NCBI GenBank assembly: GCA_028695495.1
Contig: JAQVIX010000004.1
Coordinates: 1-64,000 of the forward strand
Origin: Candidatus Cloacimonadota bacterium
Lineage (GTDB): Bacteria; Cloacimonadota; Cloacimonadia; Cloacimonadales; Cloacimonadaceae
Length of the DNA: 64,000 nt
Reading direction: 5' to 3'
The notes below the pieces were generated by a model, which saw only the letters and a program-made list of their open reading frames with translations, was not told where the DNA came from and ran no database searches. Numbering within the stretch: position 1 is the first letter of the stretch; each line of letters begins with the position of its first letter. Both the position numbers and the translations under genes were made by a program. Positions 33,532 to 47,111 of the stretch are shown here, piece after piece.

Positions 33532-36500
33532 CTAATTAATGATGGCAAGCTTGCCGCGAGTGCGCTCGCCCGCCATCTCGATGATATAGAAATACACTCC
33601 ACTGGAAAGGGTATGACCCTTATTGTTCTTCAGGTTCCAGCGGTAGCTAATACGGTTATTATCCGGATTGAAGGGACCTATACTACTGGTATATACCAGA
33701 TTGCCGGAGGCAGAATAGATGGCAATCTTGCCCTTCTTGTGGGGCGGGAAGTTCATGAATACAATCTCGCCATCCTGCTTTGGATTTATCGGATTGGGAT
33801 ATACTATCAATTGCTTGAGGTCTTTGATCTCGCGCAGGGCAAAGCGCGCCAAATTATGCTGTTTGGAGATAAGGTTGCCGCTTAAATCAGTAAGGTTTTC
33901 CACGCGGATATAATATGCCTGGTCGCTGTATTTGAGGGGGTGCGCCAGGCTAATCTTGATCTTATCACCATTAGCTTCGGCGCGGATAATGCTATTGGTA
34001 GGGTCGTTTGCCGGCGTAGTAAGAATATAATTTGCCAGATATTCCGTTCCGGTAGCAGCCAGATCTTCACTAAAGAGAATCTCCAGCTCGCTGTTGCCCT
34101 TTAGAATCTGGGTGCTTAATATCTGCGGTGGCTCGATATCTGCCACATAGTAAAAGCTGTATTCAGTTTGCTGCATGGCTACGCCGCTATTGCCATAAAT
34201 ACCGTAGATGGCGAGGGTAAGCGCTTCTTCGGTGGCGGGGATGGCTTCGCGAAAGAGCAATTGCACGCCGGTGGATTGGGCGATGTTGTTTACGGATTGC
34301 GGTCTGCCCACGCCGTGGCTTAGTTCATAATGCCCCGGGCTTTGGTAGATGGCGGGAATGGCTTGGTTGTAGTAAACGCGCAGGATATTGCTGCCCACCA
34401 TGGTGATGCTTTCCACCTGGGGTGCTGGTAGCGGGATGGCGCTTTGCCAGGCGCTGGGCACGCTCTCGCTGGGGCTGTAGCTGGTATTTACCGCCGCTAT
34501 GGCGTATTCATAACGGGTATCTGCTGTAAGTCCCATATCTATATATTCGGCAGTAAGTAAGCTATCGATCAAAGAGATTTCTCCGCCGGCTGCTTTGCGG
34601 AAGAGGCGGTAATATTCGGCATCTGTGGCAATCCAGTTTAATTGCACGCGGTGCTCATCCAGAGGGCGGGCGCTAAAGTTTGCCGGAGTGGCAGGTCCCG
34701 TAAAGGGTTCATCCATCCCCCATTCCACGGCAATCAGGGAATCTGCACCCACGCTGTAATTGCTGATAATCCAGAGTTTACCCGCTTCATCCTCGCGCGC
34801 TGCCAGACGGTAATTTGCAAAGCTATCGCCCATAAAGATGGGTTTGAACTCACCATCTATGTATTTCAGGATGTACAGGCTGGGGCTAATGCCCAAGATC
34901 ACCTCGTCTTTACCATCGCCATCAATATCTTTTACCAAGATGGTATTCTGCGAAATCACCTGGTTAAACATGATATTGCCCATGCTTTTGTAGGAGTTAT
35001 TGCCATCGGTGGTGAAGGCTTCAAAATACCAGAAAGTGAGATCGGGATCCAAAAGATGGGTATTGTAGCCGCCCACGATGAAATCCTTTTGCCCATCGCC
35101 GTCAAAATCGCCCACGGCAAGCTGATAGGTATTGCCCACCGGCATACGGCGTTCCCATACCAATTCCGGCTCATTACCCATCTGCGCCTCGTAAATCATT
35201 ACATCCCCATCCGTATCGGCGGTAAGCACGTCGTTCTGATTATCCGCATCCAGCTTGTCCACGATTACGGTGGGCACGAAGTTATTACGCGTTTCGGTGG
35301 GGCTGTTATTTACCAAAGTGTGATTTAGGAGATAGTTGCCCATGTTGTTGCGGGAATAGATTTCCACCACGCGCTGCGCCGGCAGGTTCGTAACCACCAC
35401 GATGTCCTTTCTGCCGTTATTGTCGTAATCCACCAAACAACCGCCGGTAACGCCCGTTTTTTGCCAAAGCAGCGAATCTGGGCTGGGATAATGCTGCCCC
35501 GGCTTGGTTTCCCAGAGGTAGCCGGTATCCGAGCGAATCATGAGCAGCTCCTGCCCAAAGCTATTGGTATTGCCTATATCCAGCGGCCAGCCGGTTTGCC
35601 CGAAGTCATTTGTTTGCAAATGCACGCCACCTTGCGGTTCATAAGCGTAGATGGCACCATAGCCCACCTCGGGCACGTCCATTGCTACATATTCCAGCTT
35701 GCCATTATCGTTAAAATCCACCATCTTATCCAGCGGCACCCGCGCTTTGCCTATTTCCCGATAGCTAAAGCCGTGGGTAGGAACGCTTTCGTAATGGATA
35801 TCCATAAAGTTTTGATACAAAGGGCTTTCGTAGCTTAAGCCAGCGCTGTTTTCCGCAGTGATCTGGATCGATATCTTGCCTTCCGGCAAATCGCCGGGCA
35901 ATGCCCATACTTGCAGGCTATCGCTAAAGCTGGTATATAGCTCCCGGCTATAGCCATCGCCATTGTTAAGCTTCAAAGTGGCAAGCACCTTTTCATCGAA
36001 AGCGCAGGAAATATAGTGCTTTAGCTCGGTTCTATCGTAGCGGCTAAAGCCAAGCAGCGTTTCCGTGCGCAATACGGGCGCCGTGCGATCAACCGTAATG
36101 GTGCGGTAATAATTGTATTTCATCAGGTTATTTTGCGTTTTCTGATATTGCAGGCGCAGGAGATACTTGCCTTCGGCAAAGCTATGCGGGATGTAAAACT
36201 CGCCCAGGCGTCCATTTACCACCGGCTGGGTAAAATATGTGGGCTGCGGCACATGCTCGCGCGCATCCAGCCAGCCGCTCATCGCGGGATTGCTCAGGCT
36301 GCGATACATCAGGGTATAGCGCGCAAAATCCTCGCCATACACGCTGCCTATAATCTCCACCGTGGAAGCTACGCCAATCTCATCTGCCGGACTGATGATT
36401 TCCACAAACGGCGGATCAAGCCCCTCTAAAAGCTTTTGGGTGTTCAACATACCGTGTCCGGTTTTCATATCATAGCCGGGGTCGCCCAGGTCGTCTGTAG

Positions 36501-37710
36501 AGCTTAAGAGCCTTGCCCTTACCTCGGCGGGGCTTAGCTGCGGCATTAGTGAAAGCAGTAGCGCAATGCTCCCGCTTACAAAGGGTGCGCTCATGGAGGT
36601 GCCGCTCATCTCCATATATTGGTCTGCCCCTTCTTCTTTGTAGGTGGAAAGCACCATCTCGCCGGGGGCTACCAAATCTAAATCGTGCCCATAGCTGGAG
36701 AAGGTGGAAAGAATCTTGCCGCTATTTACGCTGCCCACGCTTATTACACTGGATAGCCGGGCAGGATAGCTCATATTATCCCCCTGAGTATTGCCAGATG
36801 AGGCTACCAATACCACGCCTTTATTATAGGCATAGTCGCAGGCATCGGCAATAATGGCGGAGTAAGCGGGGTCTCCCCAGCTCATATTGATTACCCGGCA
36901 GCCGTTATCTGCCGCATAGATGATGGCAGCCGCAGCGTCGTCATCCTGCAAAAAACCTTCGGTAGTGGTGCGAAAGCCTGCGCGCAAAGGCATGATGGAG
37001 ATATTCCAGCATACACCGCTGATGCCAATGCCGTTATTGCCTTTGGCACCGATAATGCCGGAAACGTGGGTGCCGTGATAGTTCTCGTCTGTTACATCGT
37101 TATCTGGCTCCAAATAGTCGCCCAGCGCCACATCCGCCATCTCCGGCGCATCTACAAAGTCCCAGCCGCACCAATCGTCTATATAGCCATTGCCATCGTC
37201 ATCAATGCCGTTATCCGGTATCTCGTTGGGATTGATATATACGTTGTCCATGATGTCTGGATGATTGATAAGGAGTCCGCTATCCACTACTCCCACAATG
37301 ATCTGCTTATTTCCCGTGCTATAATTCCAGGCGCGGGGGATATTGCAAAGATGGTGAAACTGCCGGCTATAAAGAGGGTCATTTGGCGTGGCGTGCATGC
37401 GCCTGAGATAGTTTGGCTCGATATATTCGATGCCGGGGATATTGAGCGACTTTAGCTCTGCCAAAGGCGGCATATCCTTAAGATACACAGTAAAATAGCG
37501 GGTAGAGGGCATGCCCTTTATAGGCTCCATCCGCTTTACCTGAAAGTTTGCCAGATAGCTATCAAGCTGCACAATGCCGCTTTGTAAACCCTTGATCTCC
37601 AAAGGCTGACTGCTTTTAATTAGAAGCTGCCCCGGCACATAGAGGGATTCCGCCACGAGACTGATGCCCAGCGCCAGGAATAATACAAGGATAAGGCTCT
37701 TTTTCATCAT
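33532..37710 (-). CDS. Large secreted subtilase with FG-GAP/VCBS-like repeats, FnIII and T9SS-type sorting domain
   Basis: 1392 residues from the ATG at 37710; a TTG two codons upstream gives the longer frame but has no better ribosome-binding site. Signal peptide, then an S8 domain with Asp143 (VGVVDSGLLINHPDI), His212 (HGTHVSGIIGA) and Ser372 (GTSMSAPFVSG); an Asp/Gly/Asn-rich loop near 165-180 suggests calcium binding. About 640-1000 contains VCBS/FG-GAP-like blades (VDYDNNGRKDIVVVTN, GDFDGDGQKDFIVGG, KDIDGDGKDEVILG). A FnIII domain follows and the end has VYPNPINP, IAIYSASGNLVY and SSGVYFYIIEM, the T9SS sorting signature. It sits 21 bases after the PorV/PorQ-like gene and directly before hflX. 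Confidence 0.92.
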   Translation of the reverse strand: MMKKSLILVLFLALGISLVAESLYVPGQLLIKSSQPLEIKGLQSGIVQLDSYLANFQVKRMEPIKGMPSTRYFTVYLKDMPPLAELKSLNIPGIEYIEPNYLRRMHATPNDPLYSRQFHHLCNIPRAWNYSTGNKQIIVGVVDSGLLINHPDIMDNVYINPNEIPDNGIDDDGNGYIDDWCGWDFVDAPEMADVALGDYLEPDNDVTDENYHGTHVSGIIGAKGNNGIGISGVCWNISIMPLRAGFRTTTEGFLQDDDAAAAIIYAADNGCRVINMSWGDPAYSAIIADACDYAYNKGVVLVASSGNTQGDNMSYPARLSSVISVGSVNSGKILSTFSSYGHDLDLVAPGEMVLSTYKEEGADQYMEMSGTSMSAPFVSGSIALLLSLMPQLSPAEVRARLLSSTDDLGDPGYDMKTGHGMLNTQKLLEGLDPPFVEIISPADEIGVASTVEIIGSVYGEDFARYTLMYRSLSNPAMSGWLDAREHVPQPTYFTQPVVNGRLGEFYIPHSFAEGKYLLRLQYQKTQNNLMKYNYYRTITVDRTAPVLRTETLLGFSRYDRTELKHYISCAFDEKVLATLKLNNGDGYSRELYTSFSDSLQVWALPGDLPEGKISIQITAENSAGLSYESPLYQNFMDIHYESVPTHGFSYREIGKARVPLDKMVDFNDNGKLEYVAMDVPEVGYGAIYAYEPQGGVHLQTNDFGQTGWPLDIGNTNSFGQELLMIRSDTGYLWETKPGQHYPSPDSLLWQKTGVTGGCLVDYDNNGRKDIVVVTNLPAQRVVEIYSRNNMGNYLLNHTLVNNSPTETRNNFVPTVIVDKLDADNQNDVLTADTDGDVMIYEAQMGNEPELVWERRMPVGNTYQLAVGDFDGDGQKDFIVGGYNTHLLDPDLTFWYFEAFTTDGNNSYKSMGNIMFNQVISQNTILVKDIDGDGKDEVILGISPSLYILKYIDGEFKPIFMGDSFANYRLAAREDEAGKLWIISNYSVGADSLIAVEWGMDEPFTGPATPANFSARPLDEHRVQLNWIATDAEYYRLFRKAAGGEISLIDSLLTAEYIDMGLTADTRYEYAIAAVNTSYSPSESVPSAWQSAIPLPAPQVESITMVGSNILRVYYNQAIPAIYQSPGHYELSHGVGRPQSVNNIAQSTGVQLLFREAIPATEEALTLAIYGIYGNSGVAMQQTEYSFYYVADIEPPQILSTQILKGNSELEILFSEDLAATGTEYLANYILTTPANDPTNSIIRAEANGDKIKISLAHPLKYSDQAYYIRVENLTDLSGNLISKQHNLARFALREIKDLKQLIVYPNPINPKQDGEIVFMNFPPHKKGKIAIYSASGNLVYTSSIGPFNPDNNRISYRWNLKNNKGHTLSSGVYFYIIEMAGERTRGKLAIIN

Positions 37711-37731
37711 TTCCAATATCTTAGCATCCTA

Positions 37732-38634
37732 TTAGAAGCGGTAGCAAATACCAAAGCTATGCACATCGCTTAAACCCTTGCTAAAAGGCACAAAGGCATA
37801 ATCCAGATCAAAACCCATTACCTGCACCCCAAAGCCGCTACTAAAGCCCTGCGCTTCGTCTTTGAACTTGTAGCCCGCGCGCAGGTGCAAAAGCTGCCAC
37901 AGCTCCATATCCGCCGCCAGGCTGTAGCGCCAGCTATCATCCACCGGCTTCAGGATGGAGGCTTCCACGCCCAAAGTGTGTCCGGCGATACCAAAACCCT
38001 GATAGATATCCAGATCGAAACTGCGGGGCAGCTTTATCCGCTCTTCATCCATCTTGGCAGAAACGCCTAAATTGCGATAGGATAGCGCAATGCGACTATT
38101 CTCCAGCGGCGGAAATAAGAGCAAACCGAGATCACCGGAAAGCCCCAAAGCCGAGGCGCTATCCAGCTTTTCGTAGATAACGCTTAGGTTTGCACCAGCA
38201 TAGAGATAGGGGGTAATGCGCTCGGCATGGTTTGCCGTTATGGCTATATCCACCGGCTGATAGTAGCCATAGAGAAAGCCGGTTTCATCCCGCTCCTCAA
38301 TCTTACCATAATCCAGATTGCGTAGCGCCAATCCGGTATGCCGGCGGCGGCTGGAAACCCCATAATAGGCAGTAGAAAAGGCAGTATCGCCTATCCAAAA
38401 GCTGTGGCTCAGCCCAGCATATCTTTCCGGTTCAAAGGAAGTGGCAGCAGGCTGAAAGAGCCAGCCGGAATTGCTATTGCCGCTCAATACTCCACGACCG
38501 GCTAATGCCATACTTACGGGATTGGGTGCAATACCCAAAAACTGATAGCCATACTCTCCGGCGCTGCCGTGAATCTCCGCCATTAGGCTGCCCAGCGCCA
38601 GCAGGCAGATGAGGATAATTATGTATTTCTTCAT
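37732..38634 (-). CDS. PorV/PorQ-family outer-membrane protein
   Basis: 300 residues from the ATG at 38634, chosen because AAGGAG stands nine bases upstream and the product then starts with a signal peptide (MKKYIIILICLLALGSLMA); the longer frame begins with TTG inside the M6-like gene. After cleavage comes EYGYQFLGIAPNPVSMALAGRGV and WLFQPAAT, the start typical of PorV/PorQ proteins (a beta-barrel beginning with a conserved Pro-x-Ala-GGRG-like turn). Amphipathic strands follow and the last residues are GICYRF, an outer-membrane insertion signal ending in Phe. In P. gingivalis PorV shuttles and PorQ anchors T9SS cargo at the surface. Its position between two T9SS-like cargo genes supports such a role. 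Confidence 0.8.
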   Translation of the reverse strand: MKKYIIILICLLALGSLMAEIHGSAGEYGYQFLGIAPNPVSMALAGRGVLSGNSNSGWLFQPAATSFEPERYAGLSHSFWIGDTAFSTAYYGVSSRRRHTGLALRNLDYGKIEERDETGFLYGYYQPVDIAITANHAERITPYLYAGANLSVIYEKLDSASALGLSGDLGLLLFPPLENSRIALSYRNLGVSAKMDEERIKLPRSFDLDIYQGFGIAGHTLGVEASILKPVDDSWRYSLAADMELWQLLHLRAGYKFKDEAQGFSSGFGVQVMGFDLDYAFVPFSKGLSDVHSFGICYRF

Positions 38635-38647
38635 GAAGCTATGCTCC

Positions 38648-41600
38648 TTATTTTTCAATGCCAAACTTGATATTCAAGCTCTCGCTTCCCGCCTGAATTA
38701 CAGCGATATAGATACCGCTGGAAAGCTTGCTGGCAGGAATCTGGAAAAGCTCGCGATTCGGTAAATATTTATAGGCAAAGCCGCTTTCCTTGTAAACGAG
38801 CTTGCCGGAACTATCGTAAATACTACAGATTACCATGGTATCGATGCGCGGCATAATATTGAGATGCAAACCACCATCATGATACCTCTTTAGCGGATTG
38901 GGATAGATAAAACACTCCTGCGGAATCAGGATTTTGTTTCCGCTGTAGGGGTTTTCCTGCTGGCGATAGTAGCTTTGATATGCCCCGCGCCCAAGGCTTT
39001 GATACTCGTTAGCCCAGCGCCCTTCCTGCTGCCGCGCTCTGTAATCCGGCAGAAACGCGCGATAGATATAGCCATTATCCGCCGCCTGCCACAGATAATA
39101 CTTTCCATCTTGCCCCTGCGCTACAAAAGGCATATTGCGGCTGCGGTTTTTGAAGGAAACGGGAAAGCCGCTCTTGCGTTTGAGATTTGCACCCCAATAG
39201 CCCAGGCGGTTCAGGCTAAAAGACCCCGCCAAATCCGGCAAGCCATCGCCATCCAGATCTTGCACCAAAGCCGAGGCGGAAATGCCGTCATCTTCTCCAT
39301 CCAGAAAGAGGGTATAAGGGCTATTATCCGTGCCGCTATAATCTATTATACGGATGCCATTTGCCCCGCTCCAGATTATTTGCAGGCTGCCCAAACGCAG
39401 GATATCCGCCACCGAGATTGCGGCATGGCTGCTATCTGCCCGCGCTACGGGAAAGCCTTTGCGGATGGATAGTTCCCCCGCTACGAGCTCGTAAACCCAT
39501 AAACTGGAAGGACATTGCACGATCAGGCTTTGCCCGCCATCTTCGCTAAACTCCACTCCATAAAGCCCAAACGCCAGTGAATCCGCCGGAATATGGGTTT
39601 CCTGGCTATTGATACCGCCACTGCCTTTATCATATTCGATAATGCTATAAAAGGGATCAGCGGCAGCTCTTGCCAATACCCATAGTTTATCTTCACTATT
39701 TACCAGATTCGAGGCTATCGTTTTGGGCAGGCTTATCCCTTCTGTATCCAGTGTTTCACTTACTTTGTCGTAGATCAGGATGCTGCTTTGCCCGCTCTCG
39801 GAAGCCAGCGGCAGATAGAGTTTATCCCCCGCATCTACCGGATGACTCTTCCAGTAAAGCCCTTGCCCGGTATAAATATAGCGTCCCTCATTTGCATTCA
39901 GGCGATACAGCCGCGCCAAATTCTCAAATTGCGCAGGCAGATACAGGGCATCGCCATCCCAGGTATAAAGCCCCGCCAAAGGTGAGATCTGCTTGGGAAA
40001 GCCCGGCGCCATGGCATCATCTTTAAAGAGCGCCAGCTTACCATCCGGCATGGGATAAAATATCTCCTCTTCGCCATCGCCATCAAAATCTATTACCGCC
40101 GCCGGATAGGGATTTTCTCCTTCATAGCCGGCACTCAGTTTCCAGCTAAACCGCACGCTAAAATACATGGTATTACCGCTTTCGCTGATATCATACACCT
40201 CCAGCGGCACTCCGCCATAATAGCTTTCCGAGCTGGGCAGCCAGATGCGCCCTTCATGCAGGCTATTGCCAAAATAGTTATTATTCCCCTGCCGGTAGCT
40301 ATCGTTTGGGCTGCCATATTTGTATTCATTTGCCACCGATGTATCCAGATGTTGATAGCCATCCGCCTCTTCCAAATCCACTCCCTTATGCCGCGGATTG
40401 GAATTAACTCTATTCAGATCAAAATTAGCCGTAAACTTCTCGGCTATCACCTTTTCATCGATATGCCAGATGAGGATGCCGCTGCCATCCAAGGGGGGGT
40501 CTGTAGTGCCAAAACCCGGCAAAAAGAAATCCCATTCGCTGCCGCTATAGCGGTTTTTCATTATATCAAAATAGGGTAAAAGCGGATAATCCTCATAATA
40601 TTCCTGCTCGCCTTCCGGCAAGAGCTTGAAGGTATAGCTGGGGAGATTGTTGTAAGGATCGCGGCTACCATCCGGATTTTGCTGGCGGTTTTCGATTAAG
40701 AAATACTCATGCTCCGAAATCACCAGTTTATATAGACGCCTGGCATCCGGATCGTAATTTAGAAAGTGATCCAAAGGCAGATTGTAGGCATCATCCACGA
40801 TCTCCTGCGCCGCTTCCCAGCCCAAAAAGTAGCGGCACCAGGCGCTTAACTGCGCAGGAACGTAGCCGCCGGCATTCCAGATACCCGTGCCCATCAGCCC
40901 CCAATTTCCAATGCCCTGGCTATTGCCAGAACCGTCAAAAAGCGAGGGTAGCCCCAATACATGCCCATATTGATGCGCCAAAACGCCATAGAAACTGAAT
41001 ACATAGTGCGGGTAAATATCTTCTGCAGTGGGGAAATAGTCCTGCCATTCGTCTTCGGGAACGATGATGATATTGGTAAAAACCGCCCCATCATTGGTAG
41101 TAAAACCAGGGTAATCGTCATTATCCGGATCATACGCCGCTTGCAAGCGTTTGCGGGTAAGCGAGGTGCTCCAAATCTCATCCAGGCGTTTTCTATCGAT
41201 ATCCGTTTCCTGTCCAGGACCTGCGTGAAAGATGATTAGCCCGCCATATTGGCTAAAATCTATCGCATCATCGCAAAGCGGCATAAGGTCTTGCAATATA
41301 AAAGGCAGATTCACATCCACCCGTTCCAAGCCATCCCGCCCGTAATAAGCGATGGACTTATCTACCGTAAGCACTTGCGGATACACCGTATAGCTTAGTT
41401 CATATTGCCCATGCGAGGCATCCAAAAAGAAATCGCCAAGGTGAAGCATCCAGCGTTCAAAATAAGCCGCATCGTGATCTAAATAATCCGGAAAATCCGC
41501 CGCAGTTTTGAACCTCTGATCTGGAAAATCCACCATCAAGACCAGGATATTATTCGGCAATTCCGTCTTTTGCCCACTTAGTGGAAAACTTGCCACAGCC

Positions 41601-41758
41601 TCTGGATTGGGCTCCCAAAATGATTCATATTCCGCCCGCGAAGCTTGCCAGGCATTTGGCAAAGCCTTGTAATTTGGGTGCGGAGGTACCAGTGCCTCCA
41701 GGCAGAATACACTCAGCAGCAGAAGCGCTAAGTGCAGGATTTTAGGGCATTTTAGCAT
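38648..41758 (-). CDS. M6-like secreted metalloprotease homologue with altered zinc motif, T9SS-type sorting domain
   Basis: 1036 residues from the ATG at 41758, which has AGGAG upstream and is followed by a signal peptide (MLKCPKILHLALLLLSVFCLEA); the longer frame starts with TTG. The M6 (immune inhibitor A-like) domain spans about 60-420 and includes the region LAHQYGHVLGLPSLFD and IGNWGLMGTGIWN. The zinc motif reads H262-Q-Y-G-H266: the catalytic Glu of HExxH is Gln, so peptidase activity is doubtful. About 560-950 resembles beta-propeller/FG-GAP sequence (VIDFDGDGEEEIFYP, DLDGDGLPDLAG). The end has IYPNPLKRY, ICSIYDSSGKLVY and SSGIYIAVI, a T9SS signal. First gene of the operon with the PorV/PorQ-like protein, a subtilase and hflX. 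Confidence 0.85.
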   Translation of the reverse strand: MLKCPKILHLALLLLSVFCLEALVPPHPNYKALPNAWQASRAEYESFWEPNPEAVASFPLSGQKTELPNNILVLMVDFPDQRFKTAADFPDYLDHDAAYFERWMLHLGDFFLDASHGQYELSYTVYPQVLTVDKSIAYYGRDGLERVDVNLPFILQDLMPLCDDAIDFSQYGGLIIFHAGPGQETDIDRKRLDEIWSTSLTRKRLQAAYDPDNDDYPGFTTNDGAVFTNIIIVPEDEWQDYFPTAEDIYPHYVFSFYGVLAHQYGHVLGLPSLFDGSGNSQGIGNWGLMGTGIWNAGGYVPAQLSAWCRYFLGWEAAQEIVDDAYNLPLDHFLNYDPDARRLYKLVISEHEYFLIENRQQNPDGSRDPYNNLPSYTFKLLPEGEQEYYEDYPLLPYFDIMKNRYSGSEWDFFLPGFGTTDPPLDGSGILIWHIDEKVIAEKFTANFDLNRVNSNPRHKGVDLEEADGYQHLDTSVANEYKYGSPNDSYRQGNNNYFGNSLHEGRIWLPSSESYYGGVPLEVYDISESGNTMYFSVRFSWKLSAGYEGENPYPAAVIDFDGDGEEEIFYPMPDGKLALFKDDAMAPGFPKQISPLAGLYTWDGDALYLPAQFENLARLYRLNANEGRYIYTGQGLYWKSHPVDAGDKLYLPLASESGQSSILIYDKVSETLDTEGISLPKTIASNLVNSEDKLWVLARAAADPFYSIIEYDKGSGGINSQETHIPADSLAFGLYGVEFSEDGGQSLIVQCPSSLWVYELVAGELSIRKGFPVARADSSHAAISVADILRLGSLQIIWSGANGIRIIDYSGTDNSPYTLFLDGEDDGISASALVQDLDGDGLPDLAGSFSLNRLGYWGANLKRKSGFPVSFKNRSRNMPFVAQGQDGKYYLWQAADNGYIYRAFLPDYRARQQEGRWANEYQSLGRGAYQSYYRQQENPYSGNKILIPQECFIYPNPLKRYHDGGLHLNIMPRIDTMVICSIYDSSGKLVYKESGFAYKYLPNRELFQIPASKLSSGIYIAVIQAGSESLNIKFGIEK

Positions 41759-41861
41759 TGAGATTATTCTCCTAATGTAACTATAACTGAACAAATAAAA
41801 CTACGACCATCACCAAGATGCACGCTATTTTTAGCTCGCTGCTTAGTCAAGCGCTTTTTTG

Positions 41862-42656
41862 CTATAGCGCAGAAATCATGATCTTGCGCACCCGCTTCGT
41901 AATCGCCACCAAGAAGAGCGTAAAGGCTATCATCAGCGTTGAAAGCGAATTGATGGTGGTAATGGTGCCGCGCCGGATGGTGCCTTCCACATAGATGGGC
42001 AGCGTATCGAAGCCCCTGCCCGAAGTAAAGAAGGTAATGATAAAGTCATCGATGGAAAGCGTAAATGCCAGTAGCGCCGCGGCGATAATCCCCGGCATCA
42101 TCAGCGGAAACTTCACTTTCCAAAAGATGTACGAGGGCTTTGCCCCCAAATCCTGCGCCGCTTCCACCAGCGAATAATCAAAGCCTTCCAGCCGCGATTG
42201 GATTACGATAATCGTATAGGACAGGCAAAAGGTAATATGCGCTATCAATACCGTAAACATCCCCGTATTTGCCTTGGTAAAATTAAAGAGCAGCGCCAGC
42301 GATACCCCCATCAGGATATCTGGAATCACCAAAGGCACATAGATAAGCCCCTGCATTACCTTGCGCCCGCTAAAGCTTTTATTCTCCAGCCCCAGCGCCG
42401 CCAGGATACCCAAAGTAGTGGAGATAAACGTGGATAAAAGCGCGATTAGCATGGTATTCCAAAAGGCTGCCTTGAGAGCTTCGCTTTTTCGTAGCTCAAT
42501 ATAATATTTGAAGGTAAAGCCTTTCCAGCCGGTGATGATCTTGGCATCGTTGAAGCTATAGATCATCAAAATCAAGATGGGCACATACAAAAAGACCATC
42601 ACCAAAGTGAATATGGTGAGATTCATGCCCTTATACATCTTTGTCCGCTTATTCAT
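41862..42656 (-). CDS. potC: ABC transporter permease, spermidine/putrescine type (PotC)
   Basis: 264 residues with six predicted membrane helices. The binding-protein-dependent permease motif is at EAAQDLGAKPSYIFWKVKFPLMMPGI (the EAA loop that contacts the ATPase; only its start is quoted as EAAQDLGA). It overlaps potB by eight bases. Family members import polyamines, and related ones import iron or thiamine; substrate depends on the binding protein, which is not encoded here. Last gene of the transporter operon, 103 bases before the M6-like gene. Confidence 0.9.
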   Translation of the reverse strand: MNKRTKMYKGMNLTIFTLVMVFLYVPILILMIYSFNDAKIITGWKGFTFKYYIELRKSEALKAAFWNTMLIALLSTFISTTLGILAALGLENKSFSGRKVMQGLIYVPLVIPDILMGVSLALLFNFTKANTGMFTVLIAHITFCLSYTIIVIQSRLEGFDYSLVEAAQDLGAKPSYIFWKVKFPLMMPGIIAAALLAFTLSIDDFIITFFTSGRGFDTLPIYVEGTIRRGTITTINSLSTLMIAFTLFLVAITKRVRKIMISAL

Positions 42657-43551
42657 AACGCCTCCTCTTACTTCTCTGATGCCGTTTAAAGAGATAATAC
42701 ATAATGAGTAAGAGCACCGCCACCAAGAGCAAAAGGATGAGCGAAAGGGCGGATGCCATCGGCCAATTGCGAGGGATGTTTTTGATCTTGTAAGTAATTA
42801 CCTGCCCTATGTATAGGGACTTTTGATTGCCCACAAGCTGGGGAATGAGATAGCTGCCCAAAGAGGGGATAAACACCAAAAGCGTACCGGCAAAGATGCC
42901 TTCCAAACTAAGCGGCAAAGTAATGCTAAAAAAGGCTTTTACCTCATTTGCCCCCAAATCCATCGCCGCCTGGAGCAGCGTAAAATCCAGCTTTTCCAGC
43001 GTACTATATAGCGGCAAAATCATATAAGGTAAATACACATATACGGTTACCAGGATTACCGCCCAATCCGTGCGAATGATCTCCAAAGGCTGCGAGATTA
43101 GCCCCATATTCGTTAAAAGATTGTTCATCACCCCGTTATACGCCAAAAAGATGCGCCAGCTAAAGATGCGGATAATCAGGTTTGTCCAAAAGGGGATAAT
43201 GATGAAAATGAGCAGGGTATTGCGCACTTTTTCCCGCGCCCGCGCAATGAAATATGCCACCGGATAGCCCAAAAGAACACAGATAATGGTGGTATAGATC
43301 GCCAGCAGAAAGGAATTAAGAAAAGGCTTATAGTAAACGCCATCAAAGATTTGGCGATATGAATCCAGCGATACTTCAAACTTCACATCCAGGGTGCCCG
43401 GCGTAAGAAAGCTATATAGCACCACGATGAAATAGGGAATCAAAAAGAAGATTGAGAGCCAAATCAAACTGGGCAGGGTTAATAGCCAGCTACTGATATT
43501 TTTGTGGTGCGCTGCCTTTTCGGCAATATGCTGCTGTCGCTCTTTGTGCAT
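42649..43551 (-). CDS. potB: ABC transporter permease, spermidine/putrescine type (PotB)
   Basis: 300 residues, with a long hydrophilic N-terminus (about 20 residues, His/Lys-rich) before six membrane helices. The EAA-like loop reads QAAMDLGANEVKAFFSITLP. The start codon shares one base with the stop of potA (TGATG-type overlap), indicating translational coupling. Forms the channel with PotC in the inner membrane. Confidence 0.9.
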   Translation of the reverse strand: MHKERQQHIAEKAAHHKNISSWLLTLPSLIWLSIFFLIPYFIVVLYSFLTPGTLDVKFEVSLDSYRQIFDGVYYKPFLNSFLLAIYTTIICVLLGYPVAYFIARAREKVRNTLLIFIIIPFWTNLIIRIFSWRIFLAYNGVMNNLLTNMGLISQPLEIIRTDWAVILVTVYVYLPYMILPLYSTLEKLDFTLLQAAMDLGANEVKAFFSITLPLSLEGIFAGTLLVFIPSLGSYLIPQLVGNQKSLYIGQVITYKIKNIPRNWPMASALSLILLLLVAVLLLIMYYLFKRHQRSKRRRYE

Positions 43552-44723
43552 CAGGCTTTTCCCCGTTTTACATAGCGTTTTAGCGCCGGATTGCCCTTTT
43601 CTTCCAAAAGGCTTTCAGAAGGAATCTCCTCAATCAGCCAGGTATCGCTATCGTGCCAAAAGAGCCAAACAGGCTCCTCCCAGTCCAGCGCTTTGTCGTC
43701 AAAATACACTCGTTTATGCTGCGAGAATACGCGAAACTTCAGTTTGCCCACCAGCACGATGTATTGCGTATGCGTTCCCAAATACAGAATGTCCTCTATC
43801 ACCCCTTTGAGGATATTGATATCATCCAAAGCGCGGGGTTTGGTGCGCGAGATGGCAATCTTTTCCGGGCGCAGGGAGAGGGTAATCTGGCTGCCCAGTG
43901 CGGGAAGCTCGTTGAAACTACTATCAATATCAAAATAGCCATCGGCGCCATCCGGACAGCTAAGCTCTACATAATCCTCATGTACCGCCTTTACTTCGCC
44001 AGATATCAGATTCGTTTCGCCGATAAAATAGGCGCTAAAAATGCTGGCAGGGCGTTCGTAAATATCATCCGGCGGTCCACTTTGGATTATGTTGCCACCA
44101 TTCATTACCGCCATGGTATCCGAGATACTCATCGCCTCGCTTTGGTCGTGGGTTACATAGATGAAGGTAATGCCTACCACATCGTGGATATTCATCAGCT
44201 CTATCAGCATGTGCTGGCGCAATTTAAGGTCAAGGGCAGCCAAAGGTTCGTCCAATAAGAGAACCCGCGGTTTATTGATCAAAGCGCGCGCAATCGCCAC
44301 CCGCTGCTTTTGCCCGCCACTCATCTGATCCGGATATTTCAACGCCTGATCCTGCATTTTTACCAGTACCAGCATCTCCTGAACGCGGTCGCGAATCTCC
44401 GCTTTGGGCACCTTTTTTACCCTCAGCCCAAAGGCAACGTTATCAAATACCGTCATATGCGGAAATAGCGAGTAATTCTGAAATATGGTATTTACCTCGC
44501 GCTTGTAAGGCGGCAATTCCGTAATCTCGGTATTGCCGATGAAGATCTTGCCGGATGTGGGTATCTCAAACCCGGCGATCATGCGCAAAAGGGTGGTTTT
44601 GCCGCAACCGCTGGGACCCAAAAAGGAGTATAACTCTCCGCTTTTGATCTCCAAATTTACATTGGATACGGCGTTGAAACCGCCAAAATCCTTGCTTAGA
44701 TTTTGTAACCTAATATTTTCCAA
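43551..44723 (-). CDS. potA: ABC transporter ATPase, spermidine/putrescine type (PotA)
   Basis: 390 residues. Walker A GPSGCGKTT, signature MSGGQKQRVAIARAL, Walker B VLLLDEPLAALDLK, switch His in YVTHDQSEA, and a C-terminal TOBE domain of about 150 residues, as in PotA/FbpC-type importers. The start is a TTG at 44723: AAGGAA lies eight bases upstream and no ATG or GTG is near. It energises uptake through PotBC. No potD-like substrate-binding gene follows or precedes within the window. Confidence 0.93.
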   Translation of the reverse strand: MENIRLQNLSKDFGGFNAVSNVNLEIKSGELYSFLGPSGCGKTTLLRMIAGFEIPTSGKIFIGNTEITELPPYKREVNTIFQNYSLFPHMTVFDNVAFGLRVKKVPKAEIRDRVQEMLVLVKMQDQALKYPDQMSGGQKQRVAIARALINKPRVLLLDEPLAALDLKLRQHMLIELMNIHDVVGITFIYVTHDQSEAMSISDTMAVMNGGNIIQSGPPDDIYERPASIFSAYFIGETNLISGEVKAVHEDYVELSCPDGADGYFDIDSSFNELPALGSQITLSLRPEKIAISRTKPRALDDINILKGVIEDILYLGTHTQYIVLVGKLKFRVFSQHKRVYFDDKALDWEEPVWLFWHDSDTWLIEEIPSESLLEEKGNPALKRYVKRGKA

Positions 44724-45131: not shown

Positions 45132-47111
45132 TCAATGTGTTATAATTAACTTGCGTTTAAAGCTTTCTTTACCTAGCTCTAAACGCAGGAAATACACGCC
45201 GGAACTGAGCCGTTGACCATACTTATCCACAGCGTTCCAGCTTAATTCGTCTTTGGCTGCGCCCCAGCTTTCACGGCTGTAAACCACCTGACCGCGCAGG
45301 TTATATACTTCCAGTTTTAGGCGGTCTGCCTTGGGCACTTCGTAGGCAATATGGATTCTTTCGCCTTTGCTAAAGGGGTTGGGATAGATATTGATCCGGC
45401 TATTGGGAGAAGGCACCGTAAGATCTGCGATGGCTGTTGGTTCGATAGGCAGGCTGTACCATTGGTTTTCTGCGGGCAAATAGGCGATATTGCCGTTGAT
45501 ATCAGTGGCGCTAAAGCGATAATTAAACAGCATATCTGTCGGCTTAAAATCCGGATCAAAGAGGTAAAGATACAAGCCTCCGCCAGCATCCACCATCTCC
45601 ACCGTAATGATTTCGCCATTATCTACCTGATAGATCATCCGCGCCTGCCCAATGCCGGAATCATCTTCTGCCCAAAGGATGAAGGTAACGTTCTGGGAAC
45701 CGATGGTATCCAAAGGCGTATGTGCTAATTGCGGGGGCGTTCCATCTCCTTCAATTACAAATACATGCGGGTCAAGCGCCGCAAAGATGGGGTGGGCAAT
45801 ATTTCTGCCGCTGCTATCTGCCGCGTGGATGTAATAGCTAAGGGTATCGCCAGCGCCATAAGCTCCCAAGCTGGCTTCGTAATGGATGGAGCCGACGTTA
45901 TTTAAGCCCGCAAATTGCCAGCTTCCGCTATTGATGCGATAGCGCACATAGAGCGAATCTGGCAGCAAATCCGCACCACTATGGGCGGTAATATCCGCCG
46001 CGATACTGATATTGCGGCTAAGCACCTGAGTGCCGTGATAAGGATAATGCGCAATGTGCAACATTCCGGCATCCGGCACCTCATGCGTGCGGCAATGCAG
46101 CGCATCGGTAGATTCCCAAGGCGTGGAATAGGCTCCCAATACGCCGATTACTTCATAACCCGGCATCGCCTCGCGATATACCTGCAAGGCTGCTGCATCG
46201 TGAGTGCTATTCATCTGCGGTACAAATACTTTGTTGTTCAAGATCAGGCTATTGGAATAAGGCTGATCATTCGGAGTATATATCCGGTAAACTTTGTAAG
46301 GATAGCCCCAGGCGCAAAGCTGTGAGGCAAAGTAATTTGCGGTAGCTTCGAGGGCACTGTAGCGGGCATGGCTGGGGGGAACGCTGCGGATTAAAATCTT
46401 ATCCGGCGCCAAAAACTTGCCCCAGCAATCCACATGATCGATATAGGTATTATTTGGGTCTTGCACCACGTGGTAGGAAGTGATGCCCAGATAGTCCCGC
46501 ATTTTGTTATTTACATTCGTTTGATTGTTGCTATTTTCGGTATAGGCAATGTGGGATTGGGCGGCGGTATTGATGCCATCCGTCATATAATTGCCGCCGG
46601 TTTGATAAATATTCATGGCATAATAGGGGATACTGTATTGCTGCGCAAAACGTAGCGGAATCTGATTGTCGTTCGGGCGCGGGCGGTTGTAATTAAAATC
46701 CACCACGCTGTAATCCCCATTGCCATCGTAAATGAACCAGGGGGAATAATCCCGCGTCCAATAGCTATCTGTAGAAGCCACCATAAAGCTTACCTTATCC
46801 ATATTTACATTGGCGTTTTGGAAGCTATTGGTAGCGCTATTGATTTGGGAATTGCTGGCTACCAGGCAAATTACCTGAGCGGTATTGGCAAGCTGAGCCA
46901 CCAGCGAAGTGGGAATCCCCAAAGGATAGCGAATGATTACATGCGAAGAGGGTTCAAACTCCGCAATGGGACGCACTGGGGCGGGGGGTGGCGCAGTTTC
47001 GCTAAGCGGCACATCCCAGGCAAAACTAAGACCATCACAATTGATCCTGTCTGCAGCAAGTGTCCCCCAAAGAAGGACAATAATCATTACAAAGAGTGTT
47101 TTTGATTTCAT
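45132..47111 (-). CDS. Secreted peptidylarginine deiminase (PPAD-like) with T9SS-type sorting domain
   Basis: 659 residues from the ATG at 47111; a TTG one codon upstream is possible. Signal peptide MKSKTLFVMIIVLLWGTLAA. Residues about 45-370 form an amidinotransferase-fold deiminase. Using the numbering from this ATG: Asp121 (WTRDYSPWF), Arg143 and Arg145 (YNRPRPND), TGGNYMTDG, His226 and Asp228 (DHVDCW), Cys340 (ALHCRTHEVPD). In P. gingivalis PPAD the catalytic residues are Asp130, His236, Asp238 and Cys351, and Arg152 and Arg154 hold the substrate C-terminus; offsets of 9, 9, 9, 10, 10 and 11 are consistent throughout. It should convert C-terminal arginine of peptides to citrulline outside the cell. 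The C-terminus has NIYPNPFSKG, LEVYNLRGQVVY and SSGVYFLRLE (T9SS signal). Agmatine deiminase is less likely because it is cytoplasmic and lacks NRPRPND. Confidence 0.88.
   Translation of the reverse strand: MKSKTLFVMIIVLLWGTLAADRINCDGLSFAWDVPLSETAPPPAPVRPIAEFEPSSHVIIRYPLGIPTSLVAQLANTAQVICLVASNSQINSATNSFQNANVNMDKVSFMVASTDSYWTRDYSPWFIYDGNGDYSVVDFNYNRPRPNDNQIPLRFAQQYSIPYYAMNIYQTGGNYMTDGINTAAQSHIAYTENSNNQTNVNNKMRDYLGITSYHVVQDPNNTYIDHVDCWGKFLAPDKILIRSVPPSHARYSALEATANYFASQLCAWGYPYKVYRIYTPNDQPYSNSLILNNKVFVPQMNSTHDAAALQVYREAMPGYEVIGVLGAYSTPWESTDALHCRTHEVPDAGMLHIAHYPYHGTQVLSRNISIAADITAHSGADLLPDSLYVRYRINSGSWQFAGLNNVGSIHYEASLGAYGAGDTLSYYIHAADSSGRNIAHPIFAALDPHVFVIEGDGTPPQLAHTPLDTIGSQNVTFILWAEDDSGIGQARMIYQVDNGEIITVEMVDAGGGLYLYLFDPDFKPTDMLFNYRFSATDINGNIAYLPAENQWYSLPIEPTAIADLTVPSPNSRINIYPNPFSKGERIHIAYEVPKADRLKLEVYNLRGQVVYSRESWGAAKDELSWNAVDKYGQRLSSGVYFLRLELGKESFKRKLIITH

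Follow-up and report, generated by a model that had tools for sequence, protein, structure and literature searches.

The closest described relative of the protein analysed here is PPAD, the peptidylarginine deiminase of Porphyromonas gingivalis (PDB 4yt9, 4ytb, 5ak7, 6i0x), an enzyme linked to gum disease. In a 2024 view it was the sole bacterial enzyme of this kind described at species level (PMC11121387), and pPAD genes have also been reported to be more widespread than thought (PMC8826395). The C-terminal arginines that PPAD citrullinates in P. gingivalis are first exposed by gingipain R (PMC9559808). PPAD cannot do without R152, which contacts the carboxylate of the substrate with the help of R154; Y233 folds over this carboxylate and would collide with a substrate extended at its C-terminus (Goulas et al., PMC4487231). 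The human enzyme PAD4, an endodeiminase, also has both arginines (R372/R374), but Ser468 at the position of Y233 (PMC4487231). The two arginines alone are therefore no proof of specificity for C-terminal arginine, and Y233 is needed beside them as a discriminator. Agmatine deiminases (PDB 1xkn, 2jer, 3hvm) share the pentein fold and the catalytic Cys, His and Asp with PPAD-type proteins, but they are normally cytosolic and have neither the Arg clamp nor Tyr233 nor an Ig domain.

A predicted PPAD-family protein in Cloacimonadota

The window, the whole stretch of DNA that was analysed, comprises 64,000 nucleotides (positions 1 to 64,000 of contig JAQVIX010000004.1, assembly GCA_028695495.1) from a Candidatus Cloacimonadota bacterium, whose assembled genome of 2.7 Mb is 95% complete. 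An open reading frame on the minus strand extends from an ATG at 47111 to a stop at 45132 and specifies 659 aa. The codon immediately before the ATG is an in-frame TTG, from which a product of 660 aa would result, and the plus-strand reading of 45132-47111 contains 11 stops. In a phmmer search against the PDB, residues 38-454 aligned to residues 3-419 of the PPAD chain (6i0x, E=3.4e-140), and with such a value over 417 residues the match cannot be attributed to chance. The best agmatine-deiminase-like chain was detected with E=8e-12 only. Identity to P. gingivalis PPAD is 52-53% over the mature region, and the Pfam PAD_porph domain scored 109.7 bits (cut-off 25). The PPAD likeness noticed in a sequence-only reading of this DNA is thus stronger than had been claimed.

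The layout of the protein resembles that of PPAD, and all its parts are given here as positions on the minus strand. A Sec signal peptide is predicted from sequence reading for residues 1-20 (MKSKTLFVMIIVLLWGTLAA; 47052..47111), in agreement with a helix at residues 2-18 of the structural model; residues 21-33, which follow, were modelled with low confidence. The PPAD-homologous region (45753..47003), delimited by phmmer and Foldseek, consists of the catalytic pentein domain followed by an Ig-like domain, the order known from PPAD. At the C-terminus, a T9SS type-A sorting domain (45141..45389) was recognised above two curated cut-offs, Por_Secre_tail (38.7 bits, cut-off 27) and TIGR04183 (41.7 bits, cut-off 23), which bears out an earlier suggestion of a T9SS-like end. 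The T9SS parts SprA and PorU (E=1.7e-190) are encoded in the same genome, and the protein therefore shows the PPAD trait of a signal peptide combined with a T9SS C-terminal domain in a genome with a T9SS. What distinguishes it from PPAD is a second beta-sandwich domain between the Ig domain and the tail, predicted from model strands at residues of about 461-556 (45435..45752, limits approximate) and located outside the stretch aligned to the PPAD crystal chains. With about 660 aa, the protein is accordingly longer than its counterparts in P. loveana and P. gulae (about 575). It also differs from PPAD in belonging to another phylum, in being known from environmental samples, and in sharing its genome with a second PPAD that is joined to a protease of the Arg-gingipain type.

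An AlphaFold2 model of the protein (pLDDT 88) was compared to solved structures by Foldseek. It superposed on PPAD with a target-normalised TM of 0.96 and an rmsd of 1.6 Å at 52% identity over 420 residues. For agmatine deiminases, TM was at most 0.78 and rmsd about 3, with 15-21% identity.

Six residues had been proposed to correspond to functional positions of PPAD. With the ATG taken as residue 1, Asp121, Arg143, Arg145, His226, Asp228 and Cys340 are indeed present, and phmmer aligned them to Asp130, Arg152, Arg154, His236, Asp238 and Cys351. Arg143 and Arg145, the predicted clamp for the substrate carboxylate, are part of the motif NRPRPND (46668..46688). The Michaelis loop NNTYIDHVDC (46425..46454) contains His226, Asp228 and, in addition, Tyr223, which aligns to the exo-gate residue Tyr233. 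The catalytic set D130, H236, D238, N297 and C351 is complete and accompanied by the full clamp and the gate. That both arginines are kept had been read as a mark of C-terminal arginine substrates; the observation stood, but as proof of specificity it fails on PAD4, and Tyr223 supplies the discriminator. The catalytic Cys340 (46092..46094) was invariant in 31 aligned homologs, and W127, D130, G182, H236, N297 and C351 were kept in all 151 rows of the PPAD clade, among which R152 was missing in one and R154 in two. Tyr233 was found in 51 of 52 standalone Cloacimonadota copies. A divergent Bacteroidota clade (median identity about 31%) has both arginines, but Y233 is absent.

In a tree of 154 rows, every PPAD-type protein, including the one from the window, was separated from agmatine deiminases, which branch outside on a long branch. 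The clade of the window gene is formed by 35 standalone Cloacimonadota copies and lies near Bacteroidales groups; Porphyromonas is nested within Bacteroidales. The phylogenetic and structural checks that had been proposed thus both placed the protein with PPAD. On sequence and model evidence, the standalone gene adds a new member to the PPAD family, from a phylum in which none was expected.

The loop NNTYIDH is the commonest in the family (35 Cloacimonadota standalone copies, 17 from Bacteroidales). The T2 allele that occurs naturally in P. gingivalis (G231N/E232T/N235D), an active form of PPAD (PMC11926895), has the identical loop. The predominance of this loop in both groups suggests that T2 may represent the older state.

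Distribution and gene neighbourhood

The occurrence of the protein outside Porphyromonas had been understated: nearly all Cloacimonadota genomes searched have a member of the family, and in Bacteroidales it is common. In a search with the full-length window protein, 112 of 125 Cloacimonadota genomes gave a match at E of at most about 1e-49, and the remaining 13 gave matches of 1e-9 to 1e-19 only, the level of T9SS-tail-like similarity. PPAD-domain matches at 1e-30 or better were obtained in 138 of 393 Bacteroidales genomes, and 24 of 396 Bacteroidota genomes had a match at 1e-40. The PPAD family is therefore not confined to Porphyromonas.

Some relatives depart from the common pattern. P. gulae has a second PPAD paralog (L168:1757-3454, minus strand) with 37-39% identity to the window protein and Pro at the R154 position. 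A Bacteroidales MAG encodes two agmatine-deiminase-like proteins (L166:959-2344 and L167:758-2152) with signal peptide and T9SS-like tails and without an Arg clamp. These are predicted to be secreted penteins.

All neighbouring genes described here are on the minus strand. About 400 bp downstream of the PPAD gene, potA-potB-potC for a polyamine-type ABC transporter are located (41862..44723). At least potA recurs beside PPAD in eight other loci (L004, L012, L014, L016, L018, L020, L021, L025), of which L004 and L014 apparently belong to one genome. The recurrent synteny is recorded as an observation only, since some 400 bp separate the genes and no mechanism for a functional link suggests itself. 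Next are an M6-type secreted peptidase with a T9SS tail (38648..41794), an outer-membrane protein of the PorV/PorQ family (37732..38664; NF033709, 104.9 bits, cut-off 90), and an S8 subtilase (33532..37716) with a T9SS-like tail, the match being under the Pfam cut-off. The earlier mention of secreted subtilases nearby is thus correct in part: there is one S8 subtilase beside one M6-type peptidase, both with T9SS-tail matches. Upstream, between 47521 and 53413, genes resembling a cyclase/ATPase/TPR regulator and a response-regulator/histidine-kinase hybrid are predicted from sequence reading. No C25 gene was found near the PPAD gene in the window, the neighbours being the S8 and M6 peptidases and potABC; the genome as a whole contains 15 C25 matches.

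Association of PPAD with C25 proteases

Outside the window, the same genome encodes a second PPAD in a single open reading frame of 1741 aa (L003; G000:C13:483-5708, plus strand). Every Pfam domain detected in it exceeded the cut-off: Propeptide_C25, Peptidase_C25 (211 bits), Peptidase_C25_C, BACON-like domains and PAD_porph (100 bits). Among solved structures, PPAD is closest to its deiminase half (1.5e-84; agmatine deiminases, 4e-10), and the protease half matched gingipain R (RgpB; PDB 1cvr, 4ief) with 1e-94 to 8e-94 and Lys-gingipain with 4e-30. By its domains and by the residues corresponding to His211, Cys244 and the S1 Asp163, this protein, as distinct from the window gene product, belongs to gingipain R-type C25 peptidases, with which it shares propeptide, C25 domain and Ig-like C-terminal domain. 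In RgpB, Asp163 is the residue of the S1 pocket that sets Arg specificity.

C25 and PPAD were found in one uninterrupted frame in at least 23 Cloacimonadota genomes, including the one studied here, from 10 genera in three families; the domain architecture was checked by Pfam for five of these fusions. In two further genomes (L065, L077), the C25 and PPAD halves are in adjacent frames. One fusion (L057), a frame of 1134 aa in which the two enzymes directly adjoin in the chain, comes from a single-contig genome of 2.2 Mb that also harbors a standalone PPAD copy (L025). An assembly artefact is therefore ruled out by the 23 genomes, one of them a single contig. A model of this compact fusion (pLDDT 68, pTM 0.42) was too poor to place the two active sites. 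Most fusions form one clade from which L047 and L048 stand apart, a position hinting at several independent origins; this idea was dropped, since a single origin was not rejected (p-AU 0.147).

Equivalents of RgpB His211, Cys244, Asp163 and Trp284 were kept in 23 of 23 fusions. The PPAD part was less uniform: in nine of the 23 (L003, L059, L067-L072, L074), Tyr233 is replaced by Thr, Ser or Asn, while both arginines and the catalytic Cys, His and Asp are kept. The fused domain may consequently not be a strict exo-deiminase, and loss of Tyr233 may relax exo-specificity, possibly with a shift from exo- to endo-deimination. A T9SS type-A tail was sought in the 23 fusion frames and found in none. 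In place of a recognised T9SS tail, the 22 fusions whose C-terminus was seen have an Fn3-like end domain, mostly with an end of the type F-[YF]-x-V-x-A. Such ends occur in L003, L047, L049, L052-L062, L064 and L066-L072, as well as in several other secreted proteins of the genome studied here (L201-L205), and could possibly serve as an alternative sorting domain.

No fusion was found in Bacteroidales, where a C25 domain was absent from the longest PPAD frames retrieved (886-1141 aa). In five of the 31 Bacteroidales loci examined with their flanks (L120, L123, L171, L172, L174), a C25 gene lies directly next to PPAD in the same orientation. Since these genomes contain 2-13 C25 genes each, adjacency by chance is expected at about 0.5% per locus. 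Five of 31 would correspond to P of about 4e-7 if the loci were independent, but the five represent only about two lineages. The adjoining C25 proteins branch beside those of the fusions with 100/97 support, and the one tested, from L172, is of the RgpB type.

In the literature searched, no report of a C25-PPAD fusion was found; gingipain-like C25 peptidases are mentioned in work on Cloacimonadota (PMC8542988, PMC8359207), whereas a deiminase is not. As far as this literature shows, the fusion of gingipain R and PPAD is a new architecture, and it is a stronger result than the standalone gene in the window. Gingipain R and PPAD are separate proteins in P. gingivalis (PMC9559808), but form one polypeptide in Cloacimonadota. 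Together, the fusion and the neighbouring genes tie PPAD to a protease producing C-terminal arginine and provide independent genomic support for the gingipain R/PPAD pairing. For the standalone gene, the predicted link to a C25 partner is indirect. The subtilase had been considered as the source of protein ends for the enzyme; with at least 23 genomes containing the fusion, proteases of the Arg-gingipain type are most likely the natural partner instead.

Proposed function and alternative readings

From homology, residues and the predicted structure, the window protein very probably acts as a secreted exo-peptidylarginine deiminase following Arg-specific C25 proteases in protein-degrading anaerobes. 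It would be exported by Sec and then by the type IX system, and outside the cell bind peptides or proteins ending in arginine. Arg143, Arg145 and Tyr223 would hold the free carboxylate of the substrate and Asp121 and Asp228 the guanidinium, which would be hydrolysed with Cys340 as nucleophile, together with His226, to give a C-terminal citrulline and ammonia. Substrates would most likely be supplied by C25 proteases of the gingipain R type. A benefit could arise from ammonia or local pH, or from capping of peptide ends against trimming by Arg carboxypeptidase.

The PPAD likeness could, in principle, reflect nothing but the shared pentein fold of a secreted agmatine deiminase or a similar enzyme. 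Both belong to the same Pfam family, a polyamine-type transporter is encoded downstream in recurrent synteny, and in the NCBIfam search, which yielded no PPAD-specific model, the protein weakly matched the agmatine deiminase models TIGR03380 and NF010070. These matches were far below cut-off, however (55.9 versus 381.8 and 56.9 versus 483 bits). In agmatine deiminases, moreover, Gly is found at R152, R154 is missing, and an NGWG-type sequence replaces NRPRPND; those of P. loveana and Bacteroidales are without both arginines and without Tyr233. As the long branch outside PPAD and the clearly better fold match to PPAD point in the same direction, agmatine deiminase identity was rejected on scores, residues, tree and fold, and we regard it as very improbable.

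A PPAD fold with changed specificity, acting as an endo-deiminase or as a free-arginine deiminase in nutrient use, would be compatible with the two arginines, which the endodeiminase PAD4 also has (PMC4487231), and with the Thr, Ser or Asn at Tyr233 in some fused relatives, including that of the same genome. The window protein, though, has Tyr223 in place and an NNTYIDH loop that matches the one of active PPAD-T2 in full (PMC11926895). Furthermore, ornithine carbamoyltransferase was not found: the sole OTC-family gene adjoins PyrC and was read as PyrB. Citrulline is thus not obviously catabolised, the ADI route was discarded, and a change of this kind appears unlikely. That the secreted domain has degenerated or is non-enzymatic is very unlikely, since all catalytic residues tested are invariant across dozens of divergent homologs.

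Returning to the secreted exo-deiminase, its association with C25 proteases suggests that cleavage and citrullination have long gone together, and far outside Porphyromonas. On balance, though with less assurance than for the function of the window protein, we favor the view that Cloacimonadota possess a bifunctional enzyme, a single secreted chain that combines a protease of the Arg-gingipain type with a PPAD, so that the same molecule deiminates the C-terminal arginine it has newly produced, and that the standalone enzyme is part of an old system for citrullination outside the cell in protein-degrading anaerobes. If this is true, the gingipain/PPAD pair of Porphyromonas would be one derived case of that system. 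The native purpose of PPAD has been described as unclear (PMC6367333). Its near-universal presence in a phylum of environmental anaerobes and the repeated linkage to Arg-gingipain-type proteases point to a role of the enzyme pair that is unrelated to animal hosts. Both findings would thus offer a direct handle on this purpose, and many genes in public databases are now flagged as likely peptidylarginine deiminases.
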